NCBI GenBank assembly: GCA_002368355.1 | Contig: AP018281.1 | Location: forward strand, 1,674,001 to 1,738,000 | DNA: 64,000 bases | Source: Chondrocystis sp. NIES-4102 | Lineage (GTDB): Bacteria; Cyanobacteriota; Cyanobacteriia; Cyanobacteriales; Xenococcaceae | Reading direction: 5' to 3' | Shown: one piece after another, positions 27,600 to 38,816 of the stretch | How the letters are laid out: every line of letters begins with the position of its first letter | Numbering within the stretch: the first letter of the stretch is position 1 | Program-made: the position numbers and the translations under genes | Notes under the pieces: generated by a model | Databases searched by the model: none | What the model saw: the letters and a program-made list of their open reading frames with translations, nothing else | What the model was told of the DNA's origin: nothing

Positions 27600-30014
27600 T
27601 TATTCCCAATCAGTTAAAACCCCGTAAATCCCCCAAATAGCCATAGCTCTAAGATAATGACTTGCTCTAAAAGTTCCCACCGCAGTTATTGCTTCAGGAG
27701 TTCTAAATTGTAAGCCGTTTTCGTATATTTGCTTGACTACAGTTTCAGTAAGTTTAAAAGCTTCTTCCTGCATTCCCATCTGCAACATAAAAGCAGCTAA
27801 ACCAAAATTGATTCCTGTCCAGACTTCCAAAGGATGGGTATCATTGGGGTTAACAGGACTACCATCGGGTAAAACTCCATTGGCTGCACCATATTTACCA
27901 TGATGAAACTTGAGGAAACAGGCATCATAAACTTTATTTAAAGTGGATTTAGTATATTCTTCTGCCACAACATCGGGTAAACCTAATAAACGTGCATAAA
28001 ACTGTCCACAGAGTTGATCTGCCATCACCACATTCGACCCACTTTCCGTATCAAGACGATAATATTCGCCATTCCAAAGAGTATCATGATAGAGCGATCG
28101 CGCTTGATGTAGCCAAGCTAGATAGTTATTGAGGCAATTTTCGATACCTACGGGAAAATCTGCTGGTTGTAAGTTAGGATTCATGGGGGGATTAGCAATT
28201 AATATCTCGCCTATCTTTAAGGCTGCTTCTAAAGCTGCAATCCATAAACCTCCACAGTAGGTACTGATTCCTTTAAGTCTCCAATCATCAAAGGTTTGAT
28301 CGGGTGCGCCAGAGTTTTCAGGAATACCATCGTGATCACGGTCAAATTTTTTGAGATATTCTAACGTCAGAGTAATACTTTCCCAGCATTCCCACAGAAA
28401 GTTGATATCTTTAGCACCAGTCAAAAGGTAATCACGGTATACTTGCAGCACAAAATCACTAGGTAAGTCTTTCCACTGGTTACAATCTTGATAGGAAGTA
28501 TAATTAGTTTCCTCCCAAGGATGTTCATTAGGTGCGCCTAAGTCGTGGGGAGTTGCACCACCTGCTTTTCTAATGGCATGGGAGTTATCGTAACCTACAA
28601 TACGCGGTGTATCATCATGGTGAGGAATAGCTCTGGCAAAGGCTTCCAAGATGGATTTATCCAACTTTGACCACAACATCATTAATCCAAATGAGCCATA
28701 GAGACGAACATCAAGACTTTCATACCAGCGATAATCCATACATTCTAAGACTGCAAACTGTCCTACGGGGTCATTTTCTGATGCAGCCGTCCAAAGAGTC
28801 CCACCATCTACAAGTAGATATAATTCATTAAACAGTGCCATCTTAAACCAATCAGGCAAATCCTGCCGTTGTAGAATTGGTTGTTGCCAAGCGATGATTT
28901 TCTCTCGCCACCAGTCACTATGTTTGAGGGAAGTTCTAACCATACTCCAGGCATTTCTACCATTGCGCCCAAAAAAGTCTGTATAGCGACGATAATAATT
29001 AATTCCTTGTTTAAATTCCGTAACGGGTAAATCCCAGCATAGGGTAAAGGGAATCTGCTTAGTTTGACCTGGTTTAATAGTAAAACGAATCGCGATCGCA
29101 CAGGCTATTTGTTCTCCAGGTTGGGCTGGGGTTTCATCTTGATGATCCTTTAAAGATCCATCTGCTGCAAAATAATCCCAAATTTCTGCACCATCGCCAT
29201 CAGGATTCCAGCGAGTTTGATAAAATACTTCCACACTGGGATTATAAACAGAAGCGATCGCAATTTGTCCTTCTCCTTCTTGTACTTGCTCATCTATATG
29301 CACTCTATCTAGCAAGCAACCAACTCGATAATTATCCTGTATCCACTGGTTATAATTACCTGTACTATCGCGCCATTTGGGTTGATATTCATATTCTGGG
29401 CTACCGTCGTCTCTTACCCTAACTGTCGGTGATTTTATGGCGTTAGTAAACCAACCCACGGTATTTTGCCACGTGAGCATAATACTTAAGGTTATAGGCT
29501 CAAGACTAGGGTTATGTATTGTCCAGTTGAAATTAACCAAAGGATAACTAGCTTCTTGATAATTTTCTGCCCAAATTGGCGAAAACTGTTCACAGGTTAT
29601 CTCTGTGGTAAATACATTCTCATACTTATACCAACTGCGAGGATACAGCGCACTATATACACCTTTTTCCTTGGGATACCAAGACCAACGGGCTAAACTA
29701 TTATCTTCTGGGCGATCGGTACACAGGGCATAGGCTTGGGTTGTATCTGTTGTAGCTTCAAAAATACTAAACTGACAAGCTGGTAGAGACTTGAAAATAT
29801 GCTCTCCTCCATCTAAATGCCAGAGGTTGAAATCTCCCTTACTTGATCTGCCTATACATCCTGCCCCCATTCCTCCTAAAGGCATTCCATGCCAAGGGCC
29901 ATTATCTAAATTACTGGCATAGCGTACAGTGTAAGGGTTATCCCATCCTTTACCTATAGGACGTTGCCAGGCACAAGAGGGAATCTGAGGACTAGGCTGT
30001 TGGTTGGGTGTCAT
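27600..30014 (-). CDS. GH116 beta-glucosidase (non-lysosomal glucosylceramidase family)
   Basis: An 804-residue GH116 glycoside hydrolase related to human GBA2 and bacterial TxGH116. It has an N-terminal beta-sandwich (PLGGMGAGCIGRSSKGDFNLW near residue 41) and a C-terminal (alpha/alpha)6 domain. The nucleophile is likely the Glu of YESLDVRLYGS (near residue 430) and the acid/base the Asp in TFDDW (near residue 575), before YCGGLWIAALEAA. There is no signal peptide, so it is probably cytosolic. Substrates may be glucosyl lipids or beta-glucosides. It is a single gene flanked by repeats. Confidence 0.92.
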   Translation of the reverse strand: MTPNQQPSPQIPSCAWQRPIGKGWDNPYTVRYASNLDNGPWHGMPLGGMGAGCIGRSSKGDFNLWHLDGGEHIFKSLPACQFSIFEATTDTTQAYALCTDRPEDNSLARWSWYPKEKGVYSALYPRSWYKYENVFTTEITCEQFSPIWAENYQEASYPLVNFNWTIHNPSLEPITLSIMLTWQNTVGWFTNAIKSPTVRVRDDGSPEYEYQPKWRDSTGNYNQWIQDNYRVGCLLDRVHIDEQVQEGEGQIAIASVYNPSVEVFYQTRWNPDGDGAEIWDYFAADGSLKDHQDETPAQPGEQIACAIAIRFTIKPGQTKQIPFTLCWDLPVTEFKQGINYYRRYTDFFGRNGRNAWSMVRTSLKHSDWWREKIIAWQQPILQRQDLPDWFKMALFNELYLLVDGGTLWTAASENDPVGQFAVLECMDYRWYESLDVRLYGSFGLMMLWSKLDKSILEAFARAIPHHDDTPRIVGYDNSHAIRKAGGATPHDLGAPNEHPWEETNYTSYQDCNQWKDLPSDFVLQVYRDYLLTGAKDINFLWECWESITLTLEYLKKFDRDHDGIPENSGAPDQTFDDWRLKGISTYCGGLWIAALEAALKIGEILIANPPMNPNLQPADFPVGIENCLNNYLAWLHQARSLYHDTLWNGEYYRLDTESGSNVVMADQLCGQFYARLLGLPDVVAEEYTKSTLNKVYDACFLKFHHGKYGAANGVLPDGSPVNPNDTHPLEVWTGINFGLAAFMLQMGMQEEAFKLTETVVKQIYENGLQFRTPEAITAVGTFRASHYLRAMAIWGIYGVLTDWE

Positions 30015-30089
30015 AGACGCAAATTATTAGTTAGGCAGAATTTAGGATAACAATTAAATCTTGAATTCACCAGAATGTCTAAATATTGG

Positions 30090-30265
30090 AGACAGGAGTC
30101 AGGTAATCCCACAAGGGGACAATGTAGGTAGTAGGTAGTCAAACAAGGATAAGCTATGTCTACGACAGCTATGCAACCGCAAATCCCACAAGGGGACAAT
30201 GTAGGTAGTAGGTAGTAAGTAGGGGGTATTATTAGAAGGCTAAAAGCTAAGAGCTAACATATAAA
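30090..30265 (+). repeat. Dispersed composite repeat with two 20-mer copies
   Basis: It holds GGAGACAGGAGTCAGG, the 20-mer AATCCCACAAGGGGACAATG twice (30105-30124, 30182-30201), GGTAGTA heptamers after each, the GATAAGCTATGTCTACGACA segment and an AAGGCTAAAAGCTAAGAGCT tail. It fills the gap between the GH116 gene and the DUF1611 remnant. Confidence 0.85.
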
Positions 30266-30289
30266 AACTCTTAAGCGTTTCTCCCTTAT

Positions 30290-30440
30290 CTATGTATTAA
30301 TCGCGTCAATTAAAGATTCTCCACCAAATCTGACTACATCATTACAGGGGAGTCCTGTTAATTGGCTAGTAGATTCAATGGCTTGTTGGGCGGTGGCTGT
30401 ATCCATACCCACAGTATTAAGAGCGATCGCTTTGACTTTT
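30290..30440 (-). pseudogene. Duplicated 3' end of the DUF1611 (dgcN-like) gene
   Basis: The 129 bp at 30312-30440 match 36768-36896 with only three differences. Read on the minus strand it encodes the C-terminus of the DUF1611 protein (ALNTVGMDTATAQQAIEST and so on), with different last residues (LIDAINT) and its own TAG at 30290-30292. The front of the gene is missing. The fragment overlaps the last ~24 bp of the GrpE-like gene, whose stop codon lies inside the duplicated DNA. Confidence 0.85.
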
Positions 30441-30920
30441 TTTAGACGTAATAACTTCGATAGGACGTAGTACTTTATCTTCTAAGCGAAATCCTTGACG
30501 AACTACTCTCGTAATCGTTTGTTCTTCTAAATCTTCTCGTTCTTCGCGATCAACTACTTGGCAAACACTATAATCAGGTTTTGTATCTTGAAACTCAATA
30601 GGCTCTACTTGTCTTCGCTCTAGAATATTCAATAACTTTTTTTCAATAGTACCTAAAGACTTGGGGAGACGCTTAAAAAATTTGGGATTGGGGTCGGGAT
30701 TTTCTGCAATGTAATTAAGGAAAGATTCTAGTGCATCGAATAATTCTAGCAATTCTAAAAATAGTTCTTCTTTTTCTGCGGTGGCTTTCTGCCCTTGCTG
30801 CTGTAAAGCTTGCTTGAGAGACATTCTGTCTTTGAGCAAAGTTCCTAGTTCATACTGAAGTTGATTTCTTTGTTCTTCGTTTAGTTTTAGAATCGGCAAT
30901 TGATTATTAATTATGTTCAT
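30417..30920 (-). CDS. GrpE-like nucleotide exchange factor
   Basis: A 167-residue GrpE-type protein, expected to release ADP from the Hsp70 encoded at the head of this operon. An N-terminal coiled helix (about residues 14-50) precedes a GrpE beta-domain: VEPIEFQDTKPDYSVCQVVD, then TITRVVRQGFRLEDKVLRPIEVI. The family's usual xGxxxDPxxHEA is altered. The last seven codons (from KSQSDRS) and the stop are read from the duplicated DUF1611 3' end, so the original C-terminus was probably replaced. It is the last gene of a five-gene operon. Confidence 0.85.
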   Translation of the reverse strand: MNIINNQLPILKLNEEQRNQLQYELGTLLKDRMSLKQALQQQGQKATAEKEELFLELLELFDALESFLNYIAENPDPNPKFFKRLPKSLGTIEKKLLNILERRQVEPIEFQDTKPDYSVCQVVDREEREDLEEQTITRVVRQGFRLEDKVLRPIEVITSKKSQSDRS

Positions 30921-30971
30921 TATAAGTAAGGCTTGCTATTTTTTATGGAATTGAGATTTAATGGGGGAGGA

Positions 30972-31328
30972 TCAAAAGAGCATTGTTCCCAATCTTTGAT
31001 CAATTTCAGAAACCTGCTTAAGATCGGCGATCGCATTATCTAAACCATTAAATTCTGATAAAAATTCTAGTTTTGGTGCAGGGGTATTTAAAACAGAAAA
31101 GTCGCTGCGCCGAAAACGTTTAACTGGAGGGATTACAGGACGCAAATAATCTGCAATGATTCTCTCTTCAGGATTCATTAGACTTTTACGAGCTAGAGCG
31201 ATCGCATCAGGAGGATATTTACGACGCTTCATTGCCATTGTAAAGGCTAAAGTAATTTCTTTATTAGATGCTTCAGGTGAAACCTCTAAAACATCATAGG
31301 GATTAGCTGTGATTGATTTTTGATTCAT
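30972..31328 (-). CDS. Degenerate J-domain-like protein without HPD motif
   Basis: A 118-residue protein whose first ~65 residues follow the J-domain pattern: NPYDVLEVSPEASNKEITLAF, a basic helix (MKRRKYPPDA) and SLMNPEERIIADYLRP, similar to DnaJ SDPEKRAEYD. The HPD tripeptide between helices II and III, required to stimulate Hsp70 ATPase in canonical DnaJ, is missing (KYPPD stands in its place). The C-terminal ~50 residues are unassigned. It lies 10 bp after the long helical-repeat gene and 51 bp before the GrpE-like gene. Confidence 0.75.
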   Translation of the reverse strand: MNQKSITANPYDVLEVSPEASNKEITLAFTMAMKRRKYPPDAIALARKSLMNPEERIIADYLRPVIPPVKRFRRSDFSVLNTPAPKLEFLSEFNGLDNAIADLKQVSEIDQRLGTMLF

Positions 31329-31338
31329 TGATTTTCTC

Positions 31339-33603
31339 CTAACGGTATATTCTTAAACTGCTGTAAATCTCTTGAAATGCTGGCTCACGTGGACAAAGTT
31401 CGTAAGCCCAGTTTCCGAGTTTGAGCATTAAATCAACGGGTAAACTATTATTTTTCGCTCCTGTGAGTAATATATCTATACAAATTTCGGCAACCATAAA
31501 GCGGATTGATTCATGATGCGATTTTTTGGCTTGTCTAACAGCTTCTTCAAATCGATCTTGCCTGATTAAATGCTTAATATTTTCCTCTTCTTGAATTGTT
31601 TCGGCTTTCTCAACTAAATCGAGTGTATAAGGATTGTTTGGATCGATATTTTGAATTTCTTTTAGTTCTTTTAATCCTTGCTGAATACTAATTTCTTCAT
31701 CTGCTATTTTTTGAGCAACTTTTCTGGCTTTACACTCAGCAAAATTGCTTCTGGCTGCTTGACTAGCTATAAGTTCATACCAGAATTTACTAAATTGTAG
31801 ATGTTCGTCAAAATCATTTATTTCTTCACGCTGCAATTGACAAAGTCTATCTATTTCCTTGCGCCAGTCCAACTTAGCTTTGATTTCATCATAAGCATAC
31901 CTAAGAGGCTTAATTGCTTTACGCCATTTTAGATTTTGAAGATAATAACAACCTTCGTGATAGGAAACAAAATTATAGGCAAAGCGTTCTGCTTCAGAAG
32001 ATGGATTTCTGCTAGGTTTAATATTAATAGCACGGGCTGTATCTCCTTCGTGACAAGCTGCAACGGCTTTTCCCCAATCTGTATATAATGAACCCCAAAC
32101 TTCAGCAGGGAATTTTATTGCAGGAAAATAATCACGGAAGCGGTGATAGCAACCAGCAAGAATAAACAATTGCTGCTTAATTGTCATCCCACAATGACTT
32201 TGCTGCATTAAAGATAATGCCACCATTTCTCGACGATAGATATCCCGTAATATTAAATATTCCTCAATATTGTTATCTTTTACTAGATCAATTGTCTTTT
32301 CTATTATTTGCTTCAGTTTGCTAGAAACCTCTTTTATATCTATATCATTACTTCCCAACCAGGGAACATTTTGTAGTCTAGGATTATGTTCGATATTTGC
32401 TAAAGCTGTTGACCAAGCGATGATAAAATCAGCTAACTTATCAGGATTAATTTGAGCTTGATGATAAGTGGCAATAGCCCAGTTATGTAAAGAATTAGTA
32501 TCTTGTTGTTCTAACCAATTTCGTTCTGTTTTTACAGCTATTTCTTGCCAATTTTCAGACTCCCAGATCTGACGTTCTAAAAAAGGTTGAATATGATTTT
32601 CTAAGTTTTTTTGTACTATGGGTTCTAAACCAAATTTATTGATAAATTCTAAACTAAGTCTTTTAGCTTCGTCGATTTTATGATGATCAATTGCTGACTC
32701 AATTGTTTTAATCTGTATAGTGCGCTCGCGTTCTGCTAAACTTATAATAATTTCACGTTGAGAATTAATAATATCATTATCAATAGAACGCCATTCACGA
32801 TTAGCTTGCTGCCAATTTCCAAGTTGAGCATGAGCAAAACCCCGAATATAGGCTGCTTGCTCTCCCTTGATCTCTTTAAGATAAGTAATTGTTTGTTGGG
32901 GGCTATGTTGAACACTAATAATACCAATTCTAATTTGGCACTCAATAAATTCTGGTAATAAGTTTAATGCTTGCTGATACAGAGTAAATGCGTCATAAAA
33001 TTTATGATCACTTTCTGCAATTAATCCAGATTTATATAATTCTTTTGCTAATCTTATTTGTTTTAATTTACTTAATACCTTTTGTCCATCTTCACAATAA
33101 AATTCATTTATTATAGGTTCAAGCAAGTCAATTGCTTCTTGAAATCTACCTGTTTTAGCTATTTGAATAGATTCTTTTAACCCTCTTTCATAATTTTCTT
33201 GCTGCTTAATACTTTCCTGGCATTCAAATATTTCAGCTTCTAGTTCCTCAGTAACAAAAAGTTTTTGGGCTTGGGTAAAATTATCTAATGCTCCTTTAAA
33301 ATATTTGTACTCAATTCTTTTTCTACCTTTAGATACTAAATCTTCAAATTCAAAGATCTTGTCTATTTGCTTCTGACATCGATTAGCAGCTTTAATATAC
33401 TCAGAATTATTAGTTAATTGGCTACATTGTTTATATAATGTGAGAGCTTGGTTAAGTTGTTCTAGATCATCAGGATTATTAATATCTTTTTTTTCTAATT
33501 TTATGGCTTGCAGATATAAATTTTGAGCTTTTTTAAGCTTTTGAGACTGTAAAAAAATATAAATACCTAATCCTAGGAAAATGAGTAAAAGTAAAAGTAG
33601 CAT
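31339..33603 (-). CDS. Membrane-anchored helical-repeat (TPR-like) protein
   Basis: A 754-residue protein with a single N-terminal transmembrane anchor (residues 1-17, LLLLLLIFLGLGIYIFL) followed by long alpha-helical repeats. TPR-like units are recognisable at about residues 25-260 (LNQALTLYKQCSQL, FKGALDNFTQAQKLF, FYDAFTLYQQALNLLPEF) and again toward the end (about 620-740). No enzyme motif is visible. It is the third gene of the Hsp70 operon and could act as a membrane platform for clients or partners (inference). I know of no characterised homologue. Confidence 0.75.
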   Translation of the reverse strand: MLLLLLLIFLGLGIYIFLQSQKLKKAQNLYLQAIKLEKKDINNPDDLEQLNQALTLYKQCSQLTNNSEYIKAANRCQKQIDKIFEFEDLVSKGRKRIEYKYFKGALDNFTQAQKLFVTEELEAEIFECQESIKQQENYERGLKESIQIAKTGRFQEAIDLLEPIINEFYCEDGQKVLSKLKQIRLAKELYKSGLIAESDHKFYDAFTLYQQALNLLPEFIECQIRIGIISVQHSPQQTITYLKEIKGEQAAYIRGFAHAQLGNWQQANREWRSIDNDIINSQREIIISLAERERTIQIKTIESAIDHHKIDEAKRLSLEFINKFGLEPIVQKNLENHIQPFLERQIWESENWQEIAVKTERNWLEQQDTNSLHNWAIATYHQAQINPDKLADFIIAWSTALANIEHNPRLQNVPWLGSNDIDIKEVSSKLKQIIEKTIDLVKDNNIEEYLILRDIYRREMVALSLMQQSHCGMTIKQQLFILAGCYHRFRDYFPAIKFPAEVWGSLYTDWGKAVAACHEGDTARAINIKPSRNPSSEAERFAYNFVSYHEGCYYLQNLKWRKAIKPLRYAYDEIKAKLDWRKEIDRLCQLQREEINDFDEHLQFSKFWYELIASQAARSNFAECKARKVAQKIADEEISIQQGLKELKEIQNIDPNNPYTLDLVEKAETIQEEENIKHLIRQDRFEEAVRQAKKSHHESIRFMVAEICIDILLTGAKNNSLPVDLMLKLGNWAYELCPREPAFQEIYSSLRIYR

Positions 33604-33691
33604 ATGCTTAATTCATAAATTGATTTTACATTTAATAAAAATGTATTGTTGTCAAATAAAATACCAATGAGATGACAATTAGAAGGGGATA

Positions 33692-34231
33692 CTAATGGTT
33701 AAAATGATAAGTTTTACGATTAGGAACGAGTAAGATTTCATCTATTTTTATAAAACTTTCTCTACCTTGCAATTTGGGATTAGCATCTGTAATCCATGAC
33801 CAAGAGTTACTATCTCCATAAAAATTAGAGGCAATTAAAGACAAAGAATCCCCTTTTTGTACGACATAATTAAACCCATCACAGGCTTGAGATTTCTCTG
33901 TTTCTTGAGACTTATTTAAAGCAGTAGAAGATACAGTTTCTGATATTGGATTAGGAGGAGTAGAAGAAGTTGATGTATTTTGTGATTGTTGTTGAGCAAT
34001 AAATGAATTACTACCAAACCCTAAGCCAATACCTAATAACAGAAATAAGATTGCTATACTAACAGGTAGCCATAGGGGAATATTTTGTTTTGCTTCCTTG
34101 ACTGTTATAGATGTTTCTAGTGGCAATTGAGCCAACATTCGGTAAGTAGAAAGATCGGTTTCGCAATTAGGACAAATATTAGTCTCGATCTGCGAGCGAT
34201 CGCAAACTGGACAAGTTAACTTTACTAACAT
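33692..34231 (-). CDS. Zinc-ribbon, transmembrane, LysM-domain protein
   Basis: A 179-residue protein of three parts. An N-terminal zinc ribbon has Cys7, Cys10, Cys20 and Cys23 (CPVC and CPNC). One transmembrane helix lies at about residues 52-75 (LWLPVSIAILFLLLGIGLGF). After a Ser/Thr-rich linker comes a C-terminal LysM domain (YVVQKGDSLSLIASNFYGD, about residues 126-174), normally a peptidoglycan binder. This topology would join a cytosolic zinc ribbon to the cell wall. It is the second gene of the Hsp70 operon, 79 bp after the Hsp70 stop. Confidence 0.85.
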   Translation of the reverse strand: MLVKLTCPVCDRSQIETNICPNCETDLSTYRMLAQLPLETSITVKEAKQNIPLWLPVSIAILFLLLGIGLGFGSNSFIAQQQSQNTSTSSTPPNPISETVSSTALNKSQETEKSQACDGFNYVVQKGDSLSLIASNFYGDSNSWSWITDANPKLQGRESFIKIDEILLVPNRKTYHFNH

Positions 34232-34310
34232 AATTTTTAAAAGATATATAGAACAAACATTTATCTAAGTCCCCCAAAATTTGACCATTCTGGGGGTAAT
34301 CTTTATTTGT

Positions 34311-36515
34311 CTATCTAGTTATTCCTGTAGCAATACTGTTATTAGTTGTAGGAAGTTGTCGATCAAGATAATGGCTAACATCCTCGGCTAATTCTCTAAA
34401 CAGTCTTTCTGCTTCATAGCCGTCTTCATGTTTCATCGCCTCAATCATCTGGGATAATTTACCAGCCATGACTCTTGCTTTGTTTGGTTCAATCTGATGC
34501 GCTCTAAAAACTCCATCACGACAAGCTAAAATTAAACTAACTTTTTCAGGAAGATTGTCCAACTCACGTTTAGCATCTTCGCAAAGCTTTTGCATTTCTC
34601 CTTTACAGTGATTAGCGATCGCATTTTTTAAATTTTGATGTAATGTTTGGAGTCGTATTTTTTGACTTGAAGGGAGTAGGAAATCGCAGTCGTCTATAAT
34701 AAACTCAAAATATCTAATAAAGAATTTCGCTGTATCATAGTCATCATCAGCAAAGCGTTTTAACTCCTGTGATTTGGCTTTGGCTACACTTGCTCGATCT
34801 TGGTGTATATTTCCGTCTTGGGTTTTAATTTGATTAGCAGCTTTAACTGTTTCTCCAGCAATACGATAGGCTTCTTGAACTCCACTTTCGGTCAAATTAC
34901 CTTCTCTATTCAATTGCTGAATAATTTCTTCTACTTCACGAGAAATGCTTTCATCTTGTCCACCTGTTGATAAGGAACAACTAACTTTTACGGAAGGATC
35001 GTTTTTTAAAATAGCTGTAGTTTGAAGTGAGCCATTTTTTTCATCCAACTCTGCTGTTACTAAAATCTCTGTTCCTTTTGGATATGCTTTGTCGAGTGCT
35101 AACCACATATCCCCAATTCTTTCATCATCTCGCTTATTGACATCATCGGGGCTATAAAACTTGAAGTGAATCAAGCTTTGTCCATCTGCTTCTGTTTTAA
35201 AAGTATGAGTAGTTTTTACAGGCAGAATATCTCCTTGTTTAATCAGTTTATGTCGAGGATCGTTAACCAATTCAATACAATAGTCGCGAGAAACTGTACC
35301 GACTTTTTCAATTAAGCCAGCAGCAACAATTGCAGCACCTTCGGCTACAGCGTACATTGGACGAGGATGAACCACTACTTTGTCTGCACCAAAAGCCTCT
35401 GTAACTTTACGCTGTACTAAAGGAATTTGTGATGAACCACCTACTAGTAAAACCACATCAATCATTTCTTCTGGATAGTCAGAATATTTAATTGCGTCCT
35501 TACAAACAGCAATAGAGCGATCAACCAGAGGTATAATTAGGTTCTCGAACTGTTGACGAGTAATCTCCACTTCAATAGATATTGTCATCCCCATGTCATC
35601 TATCAAAGGGGTAGAAGGTAGAATAGAGGCTTTAGAATTGTTACTGAGTTGAATTTTAGCTTGTTCTACTGCCATTTTAAGATCGCCTAGAAAACGAACT
35701 TTTTGGTAGTGAGGCATTTTAGCAATTAAACCGTCTATATCATCCAAATCCTCTACTTCTTCTACCTGATCTTTGACAAAATCTATCAAGAGCTCGTCAA
35801 GATCATCACCACCAAGCCATAAATCACCTGCTTTACCAGATTCAATAAACTGATTTCCTGTAGATGTAACAATTGAAGAATCAAAAGTACCGCCTCCAAA
35901 GTCATAAACTAAAATTGTTTTTACATCATCGGAATCTGGTTTAAATCCATAAGATATTGCTGCTGCTGTTGGTTCGGGTAATAGTTCCGACCCTGCTAAC
36001 CCTGCTCTAGTTGCTGCTATTTGAGTTGCATTCCTTTGTTTATCATTGAAGTATGCGGGAATAGTGATCACAGCCTTAGTAATCTTTTCTTTTTGTCCTT
36101 GTTGCTCTTGATATGTTTGGGCATTGTGAAGAATTTTCTTAAGAATCTCAGCACTAACATCTTCAGGCTCGTATTCTTTGCCATTGAGCCAGACCGAGAG
36201 GCTATTTTCTGTACCTTTAGTTGACTTGGAAATTTTATAAGCAAAGCGATCTAACTGCTGTTGAATTACAGAATCTCCAAAACCCCTACCAATCAGTCTT
36301 TTAATAGAAATAATTACGTTTTCAGGATCTGCTTTTAGTTTTTGATAAGCTTCGTTGCCTACAATAATTTGATTATTTTCCAACCCAATTACCGAACGAG
36401 TCAGGGTGCGCTCGGGGGGGGGATTATCTATTGCAGTAACTATTTCTGTCTCAGCAAATTTCAAGGCAGCAACTGAATTGGTTGTTCCTAAATCGATTCC
36501 AACTATATTTCCCAT
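34311..36515 (-). CDS. Divergent Hsp70/DnaK-like chaperone
   Basis: A 734-residue Hsp70. The nucleotide-binding domain is standard: GIDLGTTNS at residues 6-14, VYDFGGGTFD near residue 203 and VLLVGGSSQIP near residue 350. After residue ~390 the substrate-binding part differs from DnaK. The usual linker and lid features are hard to find, and it ends in ~200 helical residues (AKAKSQELKRFADDDYDTAK and so on) without the EEVD- or DnaK-like tail. It is longer than housekeeping DnaK (~635). It heads a five-gene operon with four possible partners. Confidence 0.9.
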   Translation of the reverse strand: MGNIVGIDLGTTNSVAALKFAETEIVTAIDNPPPERTLTRSVIGLENNQIIVGNEAYQKLKADPENVIISIKRLIGRGFGDSVIQQQLDRFAYKISKSTKGTENSLSVWLNGKEYEPEDVSAEILKKILHNAQTYQEQQGQKEKITKAVITIPAYFNDKQRNATQIAATRAGLAGSELLPEPTAAAISYGFKPDSDDVKTILVYDFGGGTFDSSIVTSTGNQFIESGKAGDLWLGGDDLDELLIDFVKDQVEEVEDLDDIDGLIAKMPHYQKVRFLGDLKMAVEQAKIQLSNNSKASILPSTPLIDDMGMTISIEVEITRQQFENLIIPLVDRSIAVCKDAIKYSDYPEEMIDVVLLVGGSSQIPLVQRKVTEAFGADKVVVHPRPMYAVAEGAAIVAAGLIEKVGTVSRDYCIELVNDPRHKLIKQGDILPVKTTHTFKTEADGQSLIHFKFYSPDDVNKRDDERIGDMWLALDKAYPKGTEILVTAELDEKNGSLQTTAILKNDPSVKVSCSLSTGGQDESISREVEEIIQQLNREGNLTESGVQEAYRIAGETVKAANQIKTQDGNIHQDRASVAKAKSQELKRFADDDYDTAKFFIRYFEFIIDDCDFLLPSSQKIRLQTLHQNLKNAIANHCKGEMQKLCEDAKRELDNLPEKVSLILACRDGVFRAHQIEPNKARVMAGKLSQMIEAMKHEDGYEAERLFRELAEDVSHYLDRQLPTTNNSIATGITR

Positions 36516-36745
36516 GTAATATTTCCTTTCTATAAAAATTTCTGCGTTAAATTAAAAATCCTTTACAGCAGCTTAATATTTTTATAGTTCCCATGTAATA
36601 AGGAAATATTTAATCAAATTTAAGCTATTTAACATTTGTTTAAACGTTAGATAGTTATTGCTATCTTTTTATAGTAAATACTGCCTAAATCACGCTTAAA
36701 CAGCTAAACACAATAATGTTAAATGAATTAGTAGCCGATAAATAC

Positions 36746-37777
36746 TTACTGATATAAAGCTTTGAGCAAAGATTCTCCACCAAATCTGACTACATCACTA
36801 CAGGGGAGTCCTGTTAATTGGGTAGTAGATTCAATGGCTTGTTGGGCGGTGGCTGTATCCATACCCACAGTATTAAGAGCGATCGCTTTTACTTTTACCT
36901 CTCCAAAAGTACCCCCTGCACTAGCTACTGTTTCGTAGAGATCGATAACTTTAGGTAGCGGAGGAATAGCAATATCAGGTATATCGCGAATATGTTGCGC
37001 CCCTGCACGATGGACTAGGATTAAACCTGTTGGTTGACTACCCCGAATTAAAGGTAAAGTGGCTGTTGATCCTGGATGTAACAGAGATCCTTGTCCTTCA
37101 ATAATAATTAAGTCGTGATCTTTTCCTAATTCTAAAACAGTTTTTTCCACTGCCCCTGCTGCAAAATCAACCCTCACCGCATCTAGAGCAATCCCTGACC
37201 CTGCGATCGCAATTCCTGCTTGTCCTGTGGCTATGAATTTGGCTTTGATTCCCTGTTTACTTGCTGCACGTTGTAATTCTATACTGGTGGACATTTTGCC
37301 TATTGCCATATCAGTCCCAACTGTTAAAATTCTTGATGCATTAAGCGATCGCGCTCTTGCTTTTCCAATACTTAAGTTTTTTGGCTCTTGGCGAATATCC
37401 CAAATCCATTGCCCTGGTTGTAGTTGTTGATATTCGGGTTGTAGCAAGGTATGTAAACCATTAACTATTGATATTCCAGCCTCAATTGCTTTGGCTACCT
37501 CTGTCTTTAGGTTGTCTGGGAGTTGTCCCCCTGAAGGTGCAATGCCTATTAATAATACATCAGGGTTATATTCTAAAGCGTACTCAATATTGGCAACAAT
37601 TGGTACATTGCAATCAATTCCTGTTAATTGGCTTAAAGACTCCCCAGCACTGGCGCGATCAATTACCACCACAATTTCTGTCTGGCTATAACGTAAAAAA
37701 GCCAACCCCGTTTTACCGTGATCACCTTTGATGCCATCTTCTAACAAAATTGCCACACGGTTTTTATCTGTCAGCAC
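36746..37777 (-). CDS. dgcN: DUF1611 protein, D-glutamate N-acetyltransferase DgcN-like
   Basis: A 343-residue DUF1611 protein with a Rossmann-like N-terminal half and a P-loop-type second half (TVGTDMAIGKMSTSIEL, about residues 150-166; IIIEGQGSLLHPG near residue 225). Characterised DgcN works with the racemase DgcA in D-glutamate breakdown. It starts with GTG and overlaps the upstream dgcA-like gene by 14 bp, which supports the pair. The last ~43 codons are duplicated at 30290-30440. The name is by family and context; the true substrate is untested. Confidence 0.82.
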   Translation of the reverse strand: MLTDKNRVAILLEDGIKGDHGKTGLAFLRYSQTEIVVVIDRASAGESLSQLTGIDCNVPIVANIEYALEYNPDVLLIGIAPSGGQLPDNLKTEVAKAIEAGISIVNGLHTLLQPEYQQLQPGQWIWDIRQEPKNLSIGKARARSLNASRILTVGTDMAIGKMSTSIELQRAASKQGIKAKFIATGQAGIAIAGSGIALDAVRVDFAAGAVEKTVLELGKDHDLIIIEGQGSLLHPGSTATLPLIRGSQPTGLILVHRAGAQHIRDIPDIAIPPLPKVIDLYETVASAGGTFGEVKVKAIALNTVGMDTATAQQAIESTTQLTGLPCSDVVRFGGESLLKALYQ

Positions 37778-38816
37778 TGTATTGTACTCCTAGTCCTGGT
37801 TGATTGTTGGGTAATAAACGTCCTGCTTTAATTGTTGCCCCCCGAAAAGGATCGTCTCGCAGATTTAAATGACTATCTAAGTCGAGATAATCTGCCAAAG
37901 GTGCAATCTGACTCATGGCTGTATTGGCTAAACTACTGTCGCTATAGCAACCAAACATAATTTTTAATTTGCAGGCTTGAGCGATTTGGATAGCTGCGAT
38001 CGCCTCAGTTAATCCTCCTGTTTTCATAATTTTAAGGTTAACTCCTGCTACGGAATTAGCTAAACGCAGGATATCTGCACTATTAAAACAACTTTCATCT
38101 ACAAAAATTGGCAAGGGGGAATTATCGCTTAAGGCTGCTAGTTTACTATCGTCTGTCACTGGTAAAGGTTGCTCGATATACTCTACTCCTTGTTTGGCTA
38201 ACCAGTGGGACATATATACTGCATCATTAAATCGCCACCCACCATTAGCATCAACAGTAAGTCTGACTTTGGGATCTACCTGACGAATTGCCTCCACTAA
38301 GGCTTTATCTGCCCCTATACCTTCAGGACTACCTAATTTTAGCTTCACTATTTTGACATTTAATGTATTTTTCCAGTCTTGCAACCGTGCTACTGCTGCT
38401 TCTGGGGTATTAATGCCAATGGTGACAGAAATAGGTACAATGCGATCGCGGTTTAAACCGAAGATTTGCCACAATGGTAAACCAGCTTTTTTTCCTAACC
38501 AGTCGTGGATAGCCATGTCTATAGCTGCTTTGAGGGGGGAAGAAACTTTAATGGTGTGCAGTTTGGCTATAATTTCCTGTCTTTGTAGGGGATGATAAGG
38601 CTCTAGTTGGGGAATTAGATCTGCTAATTCTTGTTGTAGCCTGGCTGTATCTATAGTTTGTGTTGTGGAAATGGCAAACGGAGATCCTTCTCCCCACCCT
38701 TCTATTTCGTCCTGTTGAATACGCAACCAAATATTTGTCGTTTGGGAGGTCGTCCCACGACTTATTTGTAAGGCAAATTTTTTATGGACAGTAAAAGTCT
38801 CAACTGTTAATTTCAT
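37764..38816 (-). CDS. dgcA: Enolase-superfamily dipeptide epimerase (DgcA/YcjG-like)
   Basis: A 350-residue enolase-superfamily enzyme of the muconate-lactonizing group. Catalytic Lys residues are in VKLKLG (about 160-165) and LKIMKTGG (about 262-269). The metal ligands are in TVDANGGW, IEQPLP and FVDESCF. The group includes L-Ala-D/L-Glu epimerases and the N-acetyl-D-glutamate racemase DgcA. The overlap with a DUF1611 gene suggests the latter, though dipeptide epimerization in peptidoglycan recycling remains possible. It is upstream in a two-gene operon. Confidence 0.85.
   Translation of the reverse strand: MKLTVETFTVHKKFALQISRGTTSQTTNIWLRIQQDEIEGWGEGSPFAISTTQTIDTARLQQELADLIPQLEPYHPLQRQEIIAKLHTIKVSSPLKAAIDMAIHDWLGKKAGLPLWQIFGLNRDRIVPISVTIGINTPEAAVARLQDWKNTLNVKIVKLKLGSPEGIGADKALVEAIRQVDPKVRLTVDANGGWRFNDAVYMSHWLAKQGVEYIEQPLPVTDDSKLAALSDNSPLPIFVDESCFNSADILRLANSVAGVNLKIMKTGGLTEAIAAIQIAQACKLKIMFGCYSDSSLANTAMSQIAPLADYLDLDSHLNLRDDPFRGATIKAGRLLPNNQPGLGVQYSADR

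Follow-up and report, generated by a model that had tools for sequence, protein, structure and literature searches.

The DNA analysed here is a window of 64,000 nucleotides from Chondrocystis sp. NIES-4102 (Xenococcaceae; assembly GCA_002368355.1, contig AP018281.1, positions 1,674,001 to 1,738,000 of the forward strand), and positions are given relative to this window. Its minus strand carries five consecutive genes that encode a divergent Hsp70, a zinc-ribbon protein with a LysM domain, a TPR-type helical-repeat protein, a J-like protein and a GrpE-like protein (Table 1). A preliminary description, made from the nucleotide letters, had reported these five genes with gaps of 79, 88, 10 and 51 bp from Hsp70 to GrpE, and the list of open reading frames (ORFs) agrees with it. 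Pfam matched the Hsp70 (HSP70, E = 6e-98), and the earlier assignments of a LysM domain to the zinc-ribbon protein (24.3 bits, cut-off 20.9) and of the last gene product to the GrpE family (72.1 bits, cut-off 25.8) were both supported. Elsewhere, the Chondrocystis genome encodes three canonical DnaKs (open frames of 640–775 aa) and one canonical GrpE, and the five-gene set is therefore additional to these; two partial Hsp70-like proteins are also present. We recognised no prior description of the five-gene set in searches of open-licence PMC papers.

Table 1. Features of the five-gene locus and its immediate neighbours in the window.
Feature	Position	Strand	Remarks
Divergent Hsp70, 734 aa	34311..36515	−	ATPase residues intact, J-docking surface altered, long C-terminal part
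Hsp70 linker and signature	34311..36515	−	Interdomain linker about 6 residues shorter, without LLLD; signature KAGDLWLGG
Zinc-ribbon (N-terminal)/single predicted transmembrane segment/LysM protein, 179 aa	33692..34231	−	
TPR-type alpha-helical repeat protein, 754 aa	31339..33603	−	Predicted N-terminal transmembrane segment, residues 1–19 in NIES-4102
J-like protein, 118 aa	30972..31328	−	Predicted J fold, KYPPD at the loop (no HPD), helix III short
GrpE-like protein, 167 aa	30417..30920	−	Presumed nucleotide exchange factor
Intergenic region upstream of Hsp70	36516..36745	−	Presumed promoter region
DUF1611/DgcN-like and enolase-superfamily DgcA/epimerase-like genes, adjacent	36746–38816	−	Directly upstream of the operon
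Glycosyl-hydrolase family 116 protein	27600–30014	−	Downstream of the operon

A pattern-led scan of 84,980 prokaryote species, which relatives with neither of the exact peptide patterns would escape, yielded 69 loci (hereafter the named loci), every title being cyanobacterial. All five genes were found on a single strand and in the same order in 58 of these, counted after dropping matches below 50 bits and taking split ORFs as one gene (Hsp70 in L075, L094 and L126, TPR in L078); L118 and L125 come from one genome. Contig ends cut a further eight loci (L060, L068, L100, L109, L113, L115, L118 and L125). In a sample of 291 genomes from the cyanobacterial phylum, the TPR protein was matched in 24 and the J-like alignment in 40 at E ≤ 0.001. 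Strong matches were defined post hoc, as long matches for the TPR protein (three of 24 dropped: G029, G191 and G231) and as matches covering the J domain for the J-like protein (19 of 40 dropped, where the match was confined to the TPR extension or to short stretches of the model). The strong matches to both proteins fell in the identical 21 genomes, which are non-independent through shared ancestry. Twenty stretches were fetched from strong-match genomes: 16 had all five genes in one order, two were cut, one carried a second Hsp70 to which the J-like part was fused (L052), and one, belonging to another class of the phylum, had the zinc-ribbon gene first (L057).

The genes of the unit are closely packed, with median intergenic gaps of −4, −4, 13.5 and 2 bp (using the first start codon of each ORF), which hint at translational coupling; the gaps of the window are larger. 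A gap above 200 bp occurs in 13 of the 58 complete loci, a split gene explaining two (L075, L078) and an inserted gene pair four. In the Pseudanabaena group (L094, L102, L105, L116), an insertion of about 700 bp between the TPR and J-like genes holds two small ORFs that by eye resemble a toxin-antitoxin-type pair (DUF433/DUF5615) inside the operon. In L059 the J-like and GrpE genes are 1.4 kb apart, and the region downstream of GrpE has, at about 0.6 kb, an ORF that by eye is of the IS605-type TnpB kind. Pairwise distances of the five proteins correlate with each other (r = 0.76–0.91, 59 sets), and dN/dS of the five-gene set against L059, the nearest relative, is 0.12–0.37; the five proteins evolve in step and under purifying selection. 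These dN/dS values, together with the near-invariant catalytic residues described below, led us to reject a pseudogene or decayed paralogue. The preliminary description had made its proposal depend on conserved co-occurrence and order, both of which were found, and had named as contrary outcomes a scattering of the genes and a pseudogene-like Hsp70, neither of which was seen.

Flanking genes were rejected as a functional clue, since the commonest flanking family, a signal peptidase-like gene identified by eye, is present at only 11 of the 69 loci and no family exceeds that. In Planktothrix and Arthrospira (L070, L074, L075) the Hsp70 gene is preceded at 85–95 bp, on its own strand, by an ORF for a 495–550 aa protein that by eye has hydrophobic stretches and in L070 weakly matches TPR; L069 has a related ORF. 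This protein is a possible sixth operon member in that lineage. The 8.5 kb Planktothrix contig of L069 starts partway through one Hsp70 gene and breaks off within the beginning of an Hsp70 gene, which would reflect either a duplicate operon or a wrapped contig.

The Hsp70 rows (81, of which 73 are distinct because some genomes were entered twice; ORFs of ≤700 aa from named loci were left out) were aligned with E. coli DnaK, HscA and HscC and the three canonical Chondrocystis DnaKs. The "standard ATPase half" of the preliminary description holds for the catalytic residues, as all 81 rows have D8, T11, E171, D194 and T199 and 80 have K70, but not for the J-binding surface, from which R167 and Q378 are gone. 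Position R167 is occupied by E in 74 rows, I in four, V in two and K in one, and by R in none, and Q378 is V throughout. Further changes affect N170 (P in 67 rows, S in nine, A in five), E217 (I in 78) and V218 (E in 81), which we take to be J contacts of DnaK; HscA and HscC of E. coli retain R167, N170, E217, V218 and Q378. The LLLD core of the interdomain linker, present in E. coli DnaK, HscA and the three canonical Chondrocystis DnaKs and replaced by VILTD in HscC, is found in none of the 81 rows, and the linker is about six residues shorter; its alignment is uncertain by a few residues, on which neither the shortening nor the absence of LLLD depends. The 73 distinct rows alone give the same residue picture. 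In DnaK, H33 of the HPD motif of the J protein is described as touching L391 of the linker, P34 as touching P419, and D35 as touching R167 and Q378, and adding the linker to the isolated ATPase domain raised its rate 40-fold (PMC8215388). Among the four cited DnaK contact points, P419 is the sole survivor and is invariant in the family, and the substrate pocket is partly retained, V436 being I in 78 of 81 rows.

The preliminary description had also set this Hsp70 apart from housekeeping DnaK, and the separation stands: three canonical DnaKs are encoded elsewhere in the genome, and a branch with an SH-aLRT of 99 splits the family from the housekeeping DnaKs, the family also standing apart from HscA and HscC. 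The tree was a quick one without a mixture model and with long branches flagged, of which only the split between family and outgroup was used; in it the nearest named relatives of the window Hsp70 are from Xenococcaceae and Pleurocapsaceae. A separate 540-aa ORF of the Chondrocystis genome (L005) is very divergent and Hsp70-like, lacks the standard linker and Q378, and keeps R167.

The HPD motif is absent from all 78 J-like rows (70 distinct) as well as from three fused copies; the loop mostly reads Y-P/S-x-D and helix III is short. With the Pfam DnaJ model, the window protein scored 18.2 bits, under the cut-off of 27.8, and 19 of the 20 members of the J-like alignment were matched at E ≤ 0.1 (best 4.7e-6). 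The structure model has a pLDDT of about 90 over residues 11–60. J domains make up the majority of the 50 structural matches listed for it, 2och scoring highest among those labelled as such (Z 8.1, 58 residues, rmsd 2.4). A J fold comprising helices II and III is thus predicted, in line with the preliminary description, which had called the protein J-like and had not mentioned the missing HPD. ZipN/ARC6 was rejected as the source of the J-like domain, as the ZipN of Chondrocystis, in which HPD is absent by eye, scored −0.7 bits against the J-like family model versus 15.8 bits for E. coli DnaJ.

Taken together, the loss is matched: HPD is gone from the J-like protein, and R167, Q378 and the LLLD linker are gone from the Hsp70, so that both sides of the canonical interface are missing. 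The general rule that an Hsp70 works with a J protein, from which the preliminary description had argued, cannot be carried over in its standard form because the HPD motif and the docking residues are both absent. An association of the two proteins is nevertheless suggested by gene order and by natural fusions, which speak to association and not to function. In L052 a second Hsp70 copy carries the J-like protein fused at its C-terminal end, and in Geminocystis (L118) the 3' part of a similar fusion lies beside GrpE, the start of a second Hsp70 copy of that genome following TPR in L125. In Aliterella (L122) the gene next to GrpE encodes an ATPase domain fused to the J-like protein, and the substrate-binding domain, zinc-ribbon and TPR parts are missing.

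Transmembrane (TM) segments were called by hydropathy with a threshold of 1.6, and topology was deduced from hydropathy only. The zinc-ribbon/TM/LysM architecture proposed earlier was reproduced, with a predicted TM segment in all of the 58 complete named operons and in all 65 zinc-ribbon matches of the named loci. A LysM domain follows in 56 of the 65 (53 by motif, three by eye) and would be located outside the cell. The earlier picture of a TM-anchored helical-repeat protein fits the window, yet does not hold generally, as the N-terminal TM segment of the TPR protein is predicted in only 17 of the 58 complete operons. A TM segment is predicted in the J-like protein of four of the 58, and three of these four (L061, L066 and L067) have SPOR-like repeats beyond it that are sub-threshold in Pfam (17.3–18.5 vs 21 bits). 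The zinc-ribbon tether hence appears to be a general feature; the wall-binding part would be common though open to replacement, and the TPR anchor is lineage-specific. The TPR match itself is weak in the window protein and clearer in its relatives, of which 16 out of 19 match TPR_2 (E ≤ 0.01). The corresponding model is almost all helix (mean pLDDT 89.5, pTM 0.54), and identifying the protein through its fold was abandoned, the 50 listed Foldseek matches being generic helical-repeat superhelices with TM-scores ≤0.32 and no functional clue.

No CIRCE-type operator was found in the 64-kb window at up to three mismatches, and CIRCE heat-shock control was rejected on that basis; among the 400-bp regions preceding the Hsp70 of the 58 complete loci, the best match has four mismatches (L059). 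Promoter and terminator sites in a scan of positions 30000–37000 were no more numerous than in shuffles. In seven Nostoc loci (L080, L091, L093, L096, L099, L108, L112) a gene that by eye is like the heat-shock repressor hrcA precedes the Hsp70 by about 3 kb on the opposite strand. Gamma radiation induced Limnospira dnaK5, which encodes a 737-aa DnaK in Limnospira indica PCC 8005, 6.05- and 4.28-fold in two strains, and the other three intact dnaK genes were reportedly not scored as changed (PMC8400943); the main text of that study does not mention the six locus numbers around dnaK5. An earlier study reported induction of dnaK1, dnaK4 and dnaK5 (PMC4398503). The operon Hsp70 of Arthrospira PCC 9108 is split over two frames and covers 2213 bp, and dnaK5 is probably the operon Hsp70, judged by size, because no other Hsp70 match of PCC 9108 has an open frame of about that length.

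We favour, with moderate confidence, the interpretation that the five genes constitute a conserved cyanobacterial Hsp70 module in which the usual switch between J protein and Hsp70 has been rewired, which is tethered to the membrane, and whose J-like subunit acts independently of HPD. From the anatomy of the set we infer the following mechanism. The J-like protein would bind the Hsp70 by a different and more permanent contact, as a fixed subunit or adaptor rather than an HPD-type stimulator of the ATPase, and the GrpE-like protein would reset the nucleotide. The TPR protein would act as a scaffold in the cytosol, either presenting a dedicated client or recruiting the Hsp70, and the zinc-ribbon/TM/LysM protein would tether the whole assembly to the plasma membrane on its inner side, the LysM domain, where present, reading or gripping peptidoglycan outside. 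Such an assembly would most likely use ATP to hold or remodel, under stress, a complex associated with the envelope, and would not serve general folding. The dedicated membrane or wall machine of the preliminary description is thereby retained as a self-contained, conserved set with a predicted membrane protein, whereas a folding activity, a membrane site in vivo and action on the wall are putative.

Several observations weigh against this interpretation. The unit is restricted to 21 of the 291 sampled genomes and is broken or rearranged in three of the 69 named loci: in Prochloron (L073) the J-like gene is on a different contig, in Calothrix (L090) the TPR protein is shortened and no J-like match was found anywhere in the genome, and the third is Aliterella. 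The fusion of the latter may be a deletion remnant and not a working pair, because no TPR match was found in that genome, and the fused Hsp70 of L052, in which R replaces K70 and N replaces G198, is probably impaired as an ATPase. The top three listed matches of the J-like model (Z 8.4–8.8) are Tetrahymena respiratory subunits not labelled as J domains, and Z values under about 13 for helical models may reflect a common arrangement only. In plant CJD1, an HPD-less J-like domain failed to bind Hsp70 (PMC3196505). On the membrane side, LysM is missing from nine of the 65 zinc-ribbon proteins, and the TM segment was called in 19 of the 20 rows of the first set, L057 falling short with 1.595. Finally, R56 and M259, presumably GrpE contacts of DnaK, are changed as well (N in 67 of 81 rows and Y in 74, respectively); the nucleotide-exchange contact between Hsp70 and GrpE may have been rebuilt too, which leaves the GrpE step unsure.

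The set could alternatively be an ordinary stress chaperone, that is, a fourth DnaK paralogue with divergent helpers engaged in general refolding. The partly kept substrate pocket (V436 as I, P419 invariant) is consistent with this, as is the radiation response of Limnospira dnaK5, if it is the operon Hsp70 (PMC8400943, PMC4398503). We nevertheless regard it as rather unlikely, given that the window has no CIRCE, that the linker which in DnaK couples ATP to substrate release is missing, and that a membrane protein and a large TPR partner accompany the Hsp70 in all 58 complete operons. A role beside the housekeeping DnaKs, as an Hsp110-like cofactor or holdase without client cycling, would agree with the altered linker and substrate-binding domain and with the canonical DnaKs of the same genome, but is improbable for an Hsp70 whose catalytic residues are near-invariant and whose own GrpE-like gene lies beside it in the 58 complete loci.

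A further alternative keeps the classical switch and moves it elsewhere: the HPD-less J-like protein could, like Pam16, pair with an HPD-bearing J protein encoded at another site, which would stimulate the Hsp70 at the membrane. A membrane-linked Hsp70, a GrpE, an HPD-less J-like protein and a scaffold do make up a Pam-like parts list, the Tim14–Tim16 chain 2guz_A is weakly present (Z 5.0) among the listed matches of the J-like model, and the J-like Tim16 pairs with the J protein Tim14 (PMC3196505). However, an Hsp70 devoid of R167, Q378 and the LLLD linker should not be stimulated by an HPD-type J domain in the known way, and the operon holds no second J gene, which makes such an arrangement improbable. 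If the rewired, membrane-tethered module is the correct interpretation, its significance lies in the contrast with the common treatment of HPD and of the linker of Hsp70 as almost universal in J/Hsp70 function: here an Hsp70 under purifying selection retains a J-like partner across many cyanobacterial genera though both sides of the switch are gone. The family would then serve as a natural experiment on which elements of the Hsp70 cycle are indispensable, and as a candidate for a bacterial Hsp70 machine linked to membrane and wall.

Compared with known systems, the operon resembles DnaK-DnaJ-GrpE in having an ATPase domain with its catalytic residues, a predicted J fold and a GrpE family member, and differs from it in lacking HPD, R167/Q378 and the LLLD linker and in the additional zinc-ribbon/TM and TPR partners. 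The mitochondrial import motor (Pam16/Pam18/Tim44/mtHsp70/Mge1) likewise combines a membrane-tethered Hsp70, an HPD-less J-like subunit and a GrpE, but its mtHsp70 keeps the standard J interface, and the likeness is a works-like analogy only, with no sequence link shown. Among cyanobacteria, the DnaK1/DnaJ3/GrpE system of type IV pili (PMC9239167) is similar in that its Hsp70 serves an envelope machine as a dedicated chaperone; its dnaK1 gene is flanked by grpE and dnaJ11, whereas GrpE comes last in the window operon, and a canonical grpE-dnaK pair of the pilus-system kind is found at C1:3314056-3316532 in the Chondrocystis genome. This distinction from the N. punctiforme system was drawn from gene arrangement. 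The AtcJABC cold-adaptation operon of Shewanella also has a small J protein encoded together with partners of unknown function, but AtcJ carries a functional HPD and works with the housekeeping DnaK (PMC6715715). J-like domains are further known from the membrane-linked plastid and cyanobacterial proteins ARC6/ZipN and CJD1/CPP1, CJD1 being without HPD, but these are described as acting without an Hsp70 (PMC6391411, PMC3196505). DnaK, HscA and HscC have been described as the three prokaryotic Hsp70 types (PMC8215388). HscA and HscC are likewise specialised paralogues with dedicated partners, and the co-chaperone gene djlC and a Sel1-repeat gene near hscC in E. coli provide a loose parallel, but both proteins keep the J-docking residues, and no grpE gene was present in the E. 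coli stretches fetched. Judged by its sequence, the operon protein is an Hsp70 by virtue of its ATPase domain and fails the linker and J-docking features of the DnaK/HscA/HscC type. It is possible, though we advance this only tentatively, that the family represents a further prokaryotic Hsp70 class beside these three, with HPD-free control of the ATPase, in which the J-like partner, docking surface and linker have changed together, and which forms a membrane-spanning machine coupling the state of the peptidoglycan outside to an Hsp70 inside.

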